Shown here: in pieces, positions 6,479 through 16,764 of the stretch
Layout: each line of letters begins with the position of its first letter
Position numbering within the stretch: position 1 is the stretch's first letter
The notes under the pieces: generated by a model
Seen by the model: only the letters and a program-made list of their open reading frames with translations
What the model was told of the DNA's origin: nothing
Databases searched by the model: none
Made by a program: the position numbers and the translations under genes
IMG/VR virus record: IMGVR_UViG_3300032236_001221
Coordinates: 1 to 40,165 of that record
Length of the DNA: 40,165 bases
From: a virus
Direction: 5' to 3' (one strand)

Positions 6479-6686
6479 CTCTCTACACTATCATACAGTT
6501 AGCCCCGTATGTATGTGATTCTTGATAGATTGTGAGTATGCGCCCCCCTCCCCCAACATGGAAGAAAATGAGGCGCAAACTCCAACTCTTACATTCCCGA
6601 TGAGTTGTGCCGCTGTTTGTCAGCTCGCGGAGCTTGCGCTGGAACGGGCTTATTTGTGTCCCCCCGTTATACCCCCGGGACTAAAA

Positions 6687-6728
6687 GCAAAAACCCCTCA
6701 ACCAGTTGCGTGGCGGGGGAGTTTTTGC
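6687..6728. terminator. Bidirectional intrinsic terminator
   Basis: Arms GCAAAAACCCC (6687-6697) and GGGG-A-GTTTTTGC (6716-6728) pair with one bulged A, giving T-rich tails in both directions. Leftward it ends the ribbon-helix-helix transcript (stop at 6786). The 17-base loop contains GTTGCG. Confidence 0.7.
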
Positions 6729-6981: not shown

Positions 6982-7118
6982 AGACTCGTTAGTGGAGAGC
7001 AGGGTTGTTGGAGGCCTCTAACCGTAAGGCGGGGTAAATCGAAGGAAACTTCGGACTCAATCAACCTCCCGTAACCCTGCTCCCCTCTCGCGAGGGTTAA
7101 TAATGACTTACGACAAAT
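6982..7118 (+). ncRNA. Structured 5' leader RNA of the early operon
   Basis: The leader folds by eye into a closed three-way junction. The outer stem is a perfect 10 bp (6997-7006 with 7073-7082). An inner GGAGG/CCTCC stem (7010-7014 with 7065-7069) follows. Two hairpins branch from it: CCT/AGG (7015-7017 with 7027-7029), and CGAAG-GAAA-CTTCG (7040-7053) with a GNRA tetraloop. A further hairpin CCCTC-TCGC-GAGGG (7083-7096) lies between the junction and the first gene. The GAAA loop supports the + strand as the RNA. Aptamer-plus-expression-hairpin layout suggests a regulatory leader; I recognise no known class. Confidence 0.6.
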
Positions 7119-9804: not shown

Positions 9805-10122
9805 ATGAAAGTCTTCCAACATAGACAGTGGTGGGACTCAAAAGAGCATAAACCTTCTGCATACATATCCGAGAGAATGTACCGCCCATATTCAGACTAC
9901 CCGTTCATCATACGGGATATAACAGTTGAGAACTACGACAATGTCCTTGCCGACATAATAGGAAATGCCGCACCGTATCTCGAAGTGGTATGGGAGATGG
10001 GGGAATATAAGCCGAAGAACACTATAACGTATCGGCTTATATTCCAGGCGATAGATAAGACGTTGACTGACGATGAGGTTAATAAGACTATGAAAAAAAT
10101 ATATGAAGTTTGTACTCGTTAA
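9805..10122 (+). CDS. Free-standing FDX-ACB domain protein (PheRS beta-subunit C-terminal type)
   Basis: 105 residues, nearly all of it the ferredoxin-fold anticodon-binding domain that ends the beta chain of phenylalanyl-tRNA synthetase. The diagnostic patterns are Y-P-F-I-I-R-D-I at 32-39 and R-L-I-F-Q-A-x-D-K-T-L-T-D-D-E-V-N from 77, followed by the last helix M-K-K-I-Y-E-V. In PheRS this domain contacts the anticodon stem of tRNA-Phe. Here no catalytic, B3/B4 or other synthetase part accompanies it, and the ATG at 9805 gives a complete domain. It lies 4 bases upstream of the structured RNA at 10127, so RNA binding to that transcript or to host tRNA-Phe is plausible but inferred. It may be captured from a host pheT. 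Confidence 0.8.
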   Translation: MKVFQHRQWWDSKEHKPSAYISERMYRPYSDYPFIIRDITVENYDNVLADIIGNAAPYLEVVWEMGEYKPKNTITYRLIFQAIDKTLTDDEVNKTMKKIYEVCTR

Positions 10123-10126
10123 TTAT

Positions 10127-10475
10127 AACTTCACCATGTATATGGCGTGTAATGCACACCTAGTATCTAGGTGAAGTTCCTGTGAGGGGGTAGTATTAGG
10201 GGAGATTGGAGGGTTGGTGGGGGAGAGTAAATACTTGTGGGTTGCGCAACCTGACCAATGGCTACTCCCCACCAGCCCTTCAATAGAGGAACATTGACCC
10301 CGCAAGCTGAAGACCGTAATAGTCGTATCCGAAAGGGTACAGACACGGTGGGCTACTAAATCGGCAACCGGCCCCGTTCAGCTACGCGGTCAGTGCTTCT
10401 AAAGTTTCAATACGACCAGTCAGTCATTTTAGTGAGGGCGATTAAGTTCTGAGGTCGTTAAAATCGGCCGCCCTC
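10127..10475 (+). ncRNA. Large multi-domain structured RNA of unknown class
   Basis: About 350 bases without a credible gene, packed with helices found by direct pairing. H1 is 9 bp, AACTTCACC with GGTGAAGTT (10127-10135/10170-10178). H2 is a long arm: 8 bp (10206-10213/10276-10283), 7 bp (10216-10222/10267-10273) and 4 bp (10226-10229/10263-10266). H3 is a three-way junction: 4+6 bp closing stems (10300-10303/10386-10389 and 10306-10311/10377-10382). Its first arm is 10313-10317/10345-10349, capped by GTATCC-GAAA-GGGTAC (10325-10340). Its second arm is 10350-10353/10371-10374 plus CGG-CAA-CCG. H4 is a pseudoknot (10412-10475). The GAAA loop supports the + strand. No tRNA, tmRNA or RNase P motifs are seen. 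Confidence 0.7.
10412..10475 (+). promoter_or_regulatory. H-type pseudoknot upstream of the zinc-finger gene
   Basis: ACGACC (10412-10417) pairs with GGTCGT (10453-10458). GAGGGCG (10434-10440) pairs with CGCCCTC (10469-10475). The order of strands makes a classic pseudoknot. The AAAGGA ribosome site and ATG at 10500 follow within 25 bases, so it could control translation. Confidence 0.5.
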
Positions 10476-10499
10476 GCCAAGCTCTTTGGAAAGGAACCT

Positions 10500-10811
10500 A
10501 TGAAGTGCGTCATCTGCAAAAACCCGACGAACGCACGGGTATCCCGTTTCGACCGTACCCCGATATGCTCTAAGAGGTGTTGGGGATGGTATTCAGTAGG
10601 GGAAACTATGGAAATGCAAGTCTGCTCATTCTGCGGGCAGAGGAAGTGGGTCTACCTGAACTTGGGCGACCGCGTCTTCTGCTCCTCGGCCTGTCAACAC
10701 TGCTACGAAAGGAAACCCGATGCAAGCCTTAATTCGGGCCCATCTCCACAACTCGCTCTTGACTTCGAAGGAGCTGTTGCAAATAGCTCACCGCGCGAAG
10801 TACAAGTGTGA
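10500..10811 (+). CDS. Double zinc-finger protein
   Basis: 103 residues with two treble-clef/ribbon-like modules: C-V-I-C then I-C-S-K-R-C, and C-S-F-C then F-C-S-S-A-C-Q-H-C. A Shine-Dalgarno (AAGGA) lies just before the ATG, after the pseudoknot. The base composition is visibly richer in G and C than the neighbouring early genes. The last 30 residues overlap another frame. Likely nucleic-acid binding; function unknown. Confidence 0.7.
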   Translation: MKCVICKNPTNARVSRFDRTPICSKRCWGWYSVGETMEMQVCSFCGQRKWVYLNLGDRVFCSSACQHCYERKPDASLNSGPSPQLALDFEGAVANSSPREVQV

Positions 10812-15314: not shown

Positions 15315-16764
15315 ACATCAGGTCTTTAAGCTGCTTCTTGAAGCCCTCTACCTTATCCTTGTACCCCTTCTCAACCTTAGCCAGCTTCTCTTCATACGCA
15401 ACCTCCTTTTCTTTAAGGTCGGGGACACTGAAGTAGATACCGTTCATTGCGTTAAGTCGGTGGATGATTGACGTGGGGAAGTCTGCTAGGAAGTCTCTTT
15501 GTGACCGGTAGTACTTCTCTTTGAACATGTAGTCAGACATATTGTCGTACGCCTCGTCCACAGCCTCCTCTATGGTGTCAGCGGCTCCTGTAAGTACCGC
15601 CAAGTCCCAGGAATCGTTAGTAGAGACGGTCTTTCCATCCTTATCCTTCACTGAATACACCCACACATTCTCCCACTTCTCCATGTCCATTTCCTGTTCC
15701 TTTGACTTCTTGAGGTTAAACGCCCGTACACCCACTCCAAAGGTCTTCTTAAGGGGGTTTTCGCCGTTTACAATGGCCTTAAAGTAGTTCCCTGCGCCCC
15801 CCGCCATAGCCATCTCGGTGTATATGGCGTCATAGCCAAACCGGTTAGAGCAGAACTCACCAAAGTACATACCAGTATCGGTGAAATAGATGCTTATATC
15901 CCACACGAAGATACCGGTATGTTCTTTGGCCATTTCATACACCTTTGGGGGGAAGGCTATGCGGTTTATTTCATCATCCAGTTCAGTGCGGATGATGAGG
16001 TTAGACCCACAGCCAACCTGATTGCCGTTATTCTCCCCGTCCCCGATGTTCTTTGTCTCAATGTCCACGTCGGTAAAGACAGGTTCACCGTTGTAAAAGA
16101 CTATTTGGGGGGTTATTTCCACAGGTTGTACCAGCTTCTCCTTTAGAAGTATCTCACCCTTGGCGTATTCCTTCTCATGCTCGTCCAGTGCAGCCAGTAT
16201 AAGCTCCTTACTCTGCTCCACGTCATCAGAACCCACGATGGTTGACACGAAATCGCCTTCAGATTGAATAACCAAAGGTACATCTGACTCCTCCACTATC
16301 TTTCGTGCTTCCTCGACGGTAGCGACCTTCTGGTGGGGAATAATCTTAATATCGGGGTAGTGTTCTTCTACGAAGTTCATCGCGTCCTCCCGACCTTTCT
16401 CGAAGTCAAAGTCCTTCTTAAGAGGGAACATGCCCTGCTTAAATCCAGCGGCCAGTAGTTCTTCAGCGAACGGCCACATGTTATTGAAGGCACAGAATAT
16501 GAAGTATTCGTCCTTGTTTTTAATTTTTTTGAGGGCGTTTATCAGCTTACGAGCAGGGTATTTATCAACCATCCCATCGTACTGTGCTAGACGTTCTTTC
16601 TTCTCATCAGGTTCCTCATCATCGGGGGCTTTGGTTTCAGATTTATCCTGTACCTTACCGAAAATAGACTTCTCACCCTCCTGTTTAAGATGGTAGGCGA
16701 TAGAACCACCCTCCCCACCGAAGTCAAGAGTTATCCACGTCTTAATCTGATTTTCATCGTCCAT
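15298..16764 (-). CDS. ATP-grasp ligase, PurD (GAR synthetase)-like
   Basis: 488 residues. The start resembles the PurD N-domain (G-G-E-G-G-S-I-A-Y-H-L). A central ATP-grasp segment follows: L-V-I-Q-S-E-G-D, then I-L-L-K-E-K-L, and F-T-D-V-D-I-E-T-K-N-I-G-D-G-E-N-N-G-N-Q-V-G. The C-terminal signature D-T-I-E-E-A-V-D-E-A-Y followed by Y-Y-R-S-Q-R-D-F matches the PurD C-domain. A charged coiled coil is added at the end. PurD makes glycinamide ribotide. In a virion gene block, however, purine synthesis is not obvious, and another carboxylate-amine ligation is possible. About 55 residues longer than ordinary PurD. Confidence 0.75.
   Translation of the reverse strand: MDDENQIKTWITLDFGGEGGSIAYHLKQEGEKSIFGKVQDKSETKAPDDEEPDEKKERLAQYDGMVDKYPARKLINALKKIKNKDEYFIFCAFNNMWPFAEELLAAGFKQGMFPLKKDFDFEKGREDAMNFVEEHYPDIKIIPHQKVATVEEARKIVEESDVPLVIQSEGDFVSTIVGSDDVEQSKELILAALDEHEKEYAKGEILLKEKLVQPVEITPQIVFYNGEPVFTDVDIETKNIGDGENNGNQVGCGSNLIIRTELDDEINRIAFPPKVYEMAKEHTGIFVWDISIYFTDTGMYFGEFCSNRFGYDAIYTEMAMAGGAGNYFKAIVNGENPLKKTFGVGVRAFNLKKSKEQEMDMEKWENVWVYSVKDKDGKTVSTNDSWDLAVLTGAADTIEEAVDEAYDNMSDYMFKEKYYRSQRDFLADFPTSIIHRLNAMNGIYFSVPDLKEKEVAYEEKLAKVEKGYKDKVEGFKKQLKDLMYGTNT

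Follow-up and report, generated by a model that had tools for sequence, protein, structure and literature searches.

The intergenic DNA around positions 10205-10477 of the window (the whole 40,165-base virus record that was analysed) is predicted to encode, on the + strand, a conserved structured RNA of about 280 nt, which is the founding member of a small family not described before. We favor the interpretation that this is a free-standing, structured non-coding phage RNA that acts in trans, to which we assign a probability of roughly 45%.

Structure and extent of the window RNA

All of the helices named in a first-pass annotation of the interval 10127-10475 were present in our structure prediction (Table 1). 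For positions 10117-10500, the folding energy had a z-score of -4.2 (+ strand; none of 100 shuffles as good) or -3.3 (- strand), while for the core (10205-10480) the values were -5.0 and -3.5, respectively. Together with the relatives described below, in which compensating changes were observed, these results bear out the proposal that the + strand encodes a large structured RNA of several domains.

Table 1. Predicted RNA elements and flanking open reading frames in the window
Feature	Position	Strand	Remarks
FDX-ACB ORF	9805..10122	+	105 aa, stand-alone domain; Pfam PF03147, 30.8 bits vs 31.1 cut-off
Separate 9-bp hairpin AACUUCACC/GGUGAAGUU	10127-10135/10170-10178	+	between FDX-ACB and conserved RNA
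P1 long hairpin	10205..10284	+	19-bp stem 10205-10223/10266-10284, 42-nt apical part
P2 and the domain it closes	10285..10400	+	second long helix after P1
P2 lower helix AGAGG/CTTCT	10285-10289/10396-10400	+	
P2 internal AA	10290-10291	+	
P2 upper helix CAUUGACC/GGUCAGUG	10292-10299/10388-10395	+	
Three-way junction within P2 (inside 10292-10395)	10305..10383	+	predicted in window sequence only
Junction stem AGCUGAA/UUCAGCU	10305-10311/10377-10383	+	
Junction arm ACCGU/ACGGU	10313-10317/10345-10349	+	cap GUAUCC-GAAA-GGGUAC 10325-10340
Junction arm GGGCU/GGCCC	10350-10354/10370-10374	+	
3' H-type pseudoknot	10412..10477	+	0/100 shuffles as good
Pseudoknot helix ACGACC/GGUCGU	10412-10417/10453-10458	+	crossed by second helix
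Pseudoknot helix GUGAGGGCG/CGCCCUCGC	10432-10440/10469-10477	+	crosses first helix
Downstream ORF	10500..10811	+	103 aa; two CxxC...CxxxC zinc-finger-like motifs; neighbour, undemonstrated part

The arm previously described as 8+7+4 bp is an uninterrupted 19-bp helix (AUUGGAGGGUUGGUGGGGG/UCCCCACCAGCCCUUCAAU, G-U pairs included), the strongest in the RNA at -34.7 kcal/mol. Its 5' strand terminates in UGGGGGA, its 3' strand starts with UCCCCACC, and a small GGGUUGCGCAACC hairpin lies within the apical part. The 9-bp stem and the pseudoknot of the earlier description were likewise recovered. The three-way junction with its GAAA-capped arm was also found in the window, but conservation of its arms could not be shown, because the interior of P2 cannot be aligned across the members of the family.

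The 5' boundary of the original interval was slightly off. In the 70 nt 5' of P1 in the other members, no counterpart of the hairpin at 10127-10178 is visible, and in one of them (G051) only ~30 nt separate the preceding gene from P1. This hairpin is thus probably a feature of this locus only and not part of the conserved RNA, which for the same reason we take as starting at P1. Neither a consensus promoter nor a terminator was found flanking the RNA in the window, so both of its ends are to be read as estimates.

No conserved protein frame runs through the RNA, in agreement with the first reading. With its standard threshold, a gene caller based on codon usage predicted no gene across 10123-10719; since it also overlooks the likely zinc-finger ORF at 10500-10811, a missing call is not in itself proof that the region is non-coding. 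A 33-codon frame on the + strand (MATPHQPF..., ending at 10359) surfaces only at a looser threshold, and it was rejected as a conserved protein because it is stopped immediately in the matching stretch of the relative G054a.

Relatives in uncultivated phages

The source phage is without near relatives among annotated phages: its TerL and capsid had only distant matches in known phages. Its large terminase is of the Terminase_6N type and its portal has an SU10-like Pfam match. Full-length TerL retrieved no relatives as a search handle. They were gathered with a short conserved TerL stretch, followed by portal and then capsid alignments, and about 100 related IMG/VR records were recovered, the larger of which were taken nearly whole for screening of their intergenic regions. 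In one of the phages (G001), a GroEL-like chaperonin gene, recognized by eye, adjoins the terminase genes (L054 4467-6005, +).

A blastn search of the RNA against annotated phages gave nothing usable and a DNA comparison against the records of the related phages gave no homologue, the short best matches being at chance level in both cases. As DNA comparison was blind to the RNA, genes were called in these records, and the intergenic gaps were listed and folded on both strands. The gap at L156 14376-14745 (G054a; z = -8.0) contained the same hairpin as the window, with P1 strands GAGAGTTGATGGGGGA (5') and TCCCCACCAACCCTTC (3') followed by AGAGGAAC, the equivalents in the window being GGAGGGTTGGTGGGGGA and TCCCCACCAGCCCTTC, again followed by AGAGGAAC; the 16-nt 3' strands differ by one mismatch. 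A stem search after G054a yielded further RNAs in L181 (G051) and L185 (G073), as well as a second copy in the G054 phage (G054b, L156 8117, - strand), so that this phage carries two copies at separate loci, far apart and on opposite strands. The G073 RNA has TGGGGGA, TCCCCACC and AGAGGAA in common with the window at equivalent places. In each of the four, a second helix lies just past P1: GAACCUAUACAC/GUGUGUGGGUUU in G054a, GUGAAGAG/CUCUUCAC in G054b, UUGAAAACAG/CUGUUUUCAA in G073 and GAUGGUUGGUGGU/ACUGCCAAUCAUC in G051. We regard the four as homologues, and the family comprises the window RNA and at least four others.

A two-helix descriptor (P1 and P2) placed the known members high in the ranking and brought in three weaker candidate members (G068, G088 and G089); besides the window RNA, the P1-P2 core is thus seen in seven RNAs from six related phages. 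This core consists of P1, with a G-rich 5' strand ending in GGGGGA and a C-rich 3' strand, a short linker, and P2. Sequence conservation is confined to the top of P1 (GGGGGA/CCCC) and to the purine-rich linker (GAGGAA in four members).

An alternative explanation is that unrelated strong intergenic hairpins arose independently and were grouped together by our search. Nine of 181 gaps scored at least 65 with the descriptor, and random windows from the same genomes gave 1.6 per replicate at this score, although some of these may overlap the RNAs themselves; in addition, the three candidates have little common sequence, and after rapid divergence no full-length alignment is available. On the other hand, shuffled gaps yielded only 0.05 per replicate at the same score, the sequences shared by the window with G054a and G073 lie at corresponding positions, the chance motif matches found in IMG/VR and GTDB lack an extended stem, and P2 had not yet been noticed when P1 was used to pick the first members. 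We therefore consider independent origin of these hairpins unlikely.

As in the window, the + strand fold of the other members lay well outside the chance range, and the helices themselves were compared across the eight sequences. For P1, 91.2% of the cells were paired and both sides had changed at 11 of the 17 pairs; the covariation score was 0.733, compared to 0.249 for shuffled sequences (0 of 500) and no more than 0.20 when the registers were slid. The arms had been spliced by hand in register before the pairs were counted and several members had been picked for a long stem, so this count is partly circular and overstates the case. P2 provides the more independent evidence, since P1 was the sole criterion for choosing the first members: all eight RNAs have a strong helix 0-14 nt past P1, at an equivalent position with different sequence (it was not counted pair by pair), and no shuffle out of 200 was as good in seven of them, as against 5/200 in the window. 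The topology of the 3' pseudoknot is the same in G054a, where its helices have energies of -19.4 and -31.3 kcal/mol, and in G068 (2/100 shuffles as good), and it possibly recurs in G073 (1/100); no pseudoknot was found in G054b, G051, G088 or G089. Judged from the aligned arms, P1 pairing is kept through compensating changes, and a shared helix of this kind is what marks an RNA family.

The comparison also bears on the possibility of an element acting at the level of DNA or replication, such as an origin structure, a primer RNA or a packaging signal, in which the inverted repeats would matter as DNA. The location in the early region and the next gene in G054a, which by eye resembles a replisome organiser, would be consistent with such a role. 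However, the + strand folds better in seven of the eight members and equally well in G089, which argues that RNA pairing, G-U pairs included, is what matters; moreover, the orientation of the RNA always follows the genes, and the G054 copies lie far apart on opposite strands. We judge a DNA-level role to be the least probable explanation, and improbable in absolute terms.

Exact-motif scans of IMG/VR and GTDB, which detect close relatives only, returned the known members together with the chance matches already mentioned; one of these, in a Kaiserbacteria sequence (L246), had no more than 8 additional pairs and appears to be accidental. That no further member was found in these scans suggests that the family is confined to the clade of the source phage.

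Several other structured regions were encountered in the screen. A third structured intergenic region of the G054 phage (L156 6917-7210, -), which has a three-way junction and possibly also a pseudoknot, lies directly 5' of a zinc-finger ORF, matching the position of the window RNA; it had been the first candidate homologue and was set aside, as its helices occur in a different order. Well-folded gaps in L163, L159, L152, L170 and L161 were not accepted as members because they do not share the P1 motif. Four of these hold strong folds (z of -6 to -8.5; L163 3814-3975, +; L159 2066-2319, +; L170 1633-1811; L152 12624-12903, -) and are possible further RNAs. Zinc-finger ORFs, possibly homing endonucleases, are scattered over intergenic positions of related phages (L161 9292-9801, -, and similar ORFs in L153, L159 and L171). 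Within the window, a second structured element, a hairpin of ~84 nt (GAGCAGGGTTGTTGG...CCTCCCGTAACCCTGCTC), occupies 7003-7086 (+); its arms faintly resemble P1, and its homologue in G049 (L151 10481-10389, - strand) is followed by a terminator-like hairpin. The non-coding stretch 6516-6700 has 81-84% DNA identity to G053 (L154 10298-10472), a phage that otherwise aligns with the window only at the protein level, and is perhaps a regulatory or origin element. An unusually strong fold on both strands at 15801-16000, inside a 488-aa ORF, suggests a near-perfect inverted repeat within that gene.

Neighbouring genes and known RNA classes

The FDX-ACB domain is normally found at the C-terminus of PheRS beta. 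In the window, the stand-alone domain ends 4 bases before the first hairpin, as had been noted, which places it 82 bases before the conserved RNA. PF03147 was detected in none of 28 related records, some of them fragments, although these comprised every one of the six in which an RNA or a candidate occurs and the same search detected it in 11 of 14 control genomes; the phage thus carries a stand-alone FDX-ACB domain that is missing from the relatives searched. With the window protein as query, only one marginal match was obtained, in a distant record, so that it was useless as a handle for finding relatives. As no useful match was found among the relatives, FDX-ACB does not seem to travel with the RNA, and the earlier proposal that the two act together is not supported by these comparisons; we treat FDX-ACB as a neighbour. 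The ORF on the other side, at 10500-10811, has no Pfam match.

The flanking genes on both sides are different at every locus. The downstream genes, judged by eye, are unrelated (zinc-finger-like, replication-organiser-like, a signal-peptide protein and others), and in all eight cases both neighbouring genes run in the same direction as the RNA, read on the strand where the 5' arm of P1 is G-rich. The differing neighbours and the two loci in G054 would be expected of an independent module and not of the leader of one gene; with the architecture kept while the sequence is almost unconserved, they are the basis of the free-standing, trans-acting interpretation, which was drawn from eight divergent sequences, three of them only candidates.

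The strongest competing interpretation is that of a cis-acting leader, a 5' UTR structure that would set the translation of the next gene with a pseudoknot beside the ribosome-binding site, comparable to the T4 gp32 leader discussed below. Every one of the eight RNAs lies directly 5' of a same-strand ORF, which counts against a trans-acting RNA, and in three of them the pseudoknot ends at a distance that a cis element would also fit: 23 nt before the ATG in the window, 4 nt before the ATG in G054a, where there is no obvious Shine-Dalgarno sequence, and within about 30 nt of the start codon in G068. In addition, no terminator was found in the window that would separate the RNA from the gene after it. 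Nevertheless, any RNA in a compact phage genome precedes some gene, the genes that follow look unrelated by eye, half of the members gave no pseudoknot, and no conserved ligand pocket is visible. In our opinion, the odds are therefore somewhat against a cis-acting leader.

Searches for known classes recovered none, and the first-pass annotation had likewise recognized none. Rfam 15 gave no match at the gathering threshold for the window or six member loci, and permissive searches of three members produced nothing above chance level, all matches scoring far short of the gathering values. No tRNA gene was found in the window or the member loci searched, no tmRNA was found with ARAGORN, and no covariance match to GOLLD or ROOL was obtained. 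The group I intron core (P3-P7) and RNase P RNA had no covariance match at E values up to 10. Unlike a group I intron, the element interrupts no gene; it sits between different ORFs in each phage. The AGAGGAA motif recalls CR-I of RNase P RNA (GAGGAAAGUC).

The nearest kind of RNA is represented by GOLLD and ROOL, large ornate RNAs of phages and prophages, which, like the window RNA as we interpret it, are phage-borne, free-standing and heavily structured, with pseudoknots. In GOLLD, a variable 5' part is followed by a conserved 3' part, and expression rises during lysis; many GOLLD RNAs exceed 800 nt, and GOLLD and ROOL often occur near tRNA islands (PMC12286853). In contrast, the RNAs of the present family are ~280-400 nt long, have no tRNA genes in the window or the member loci searched and no Rfam match, and show another architecture. 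The manA and wcaG motifs are structured cyanophage RNAs known from metagenomes, and were proposed to be cis regulators tied to particular gene classes (PMC2864571). The family described here differs from them in lacking both a common downstream gene and an Rfam match.

The cores of ligand-binding riboswitches are usually conserved. Since no such core is visible across the members, and no downstream gene class common to them was found (homology judged by eye), a riboswitch is disfavored. The phi29 pRNA is a compact structured phage RNA working in trans; it is half the size and tied to the phi29 motor, while the window RNA has no Rfam match and its phage has the Terminase_6N-type large terminase mentioned above. 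In phage T4, a pseudoknot leader through which gp32 regulates its own mRNA lies shortly 5' of the start codon of gene 32; that leader is small and serves one gene, unlike the present family of several hundred nt with a varying neighbour gene.

Proposed role and significance

In the trans-acting interpretation, the ~280-nt RNA would be transcribed with the early + strand operon and matured, and in the source phage would fold into P1, P2 closing a variable domain, and the 3' pseudoknot. It would then most likely act as a protein-binding scaffold or as a decoy against a host factor.

To our knowledge, few large structured phage RNAs have been described, and only a minority of them have an assigned function. 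The window RNA is of a size suited to biochemistry and cryo-EM, and the two diverged copies within the G054 phage make the family of further interest. Its sequence drift is so great that ordinary DNA comparison overlooks the family (blastn found 0 relatives), and our results suggest that RNA families missed by sequence searches can be uncovered by fold-based screening of the intergenic regions in related phages that are uncultivated. More tentatively, and with the balance of probability somewhat against it, these RNAs may represent a new trans-acting class in one clade of uncultivated phages, in which the P1-P2 fold was kept while nearly all of the sequence was replaced, as might be the case for an RNA serving as a weapon or a decoy in an arms race against host defence or translation.
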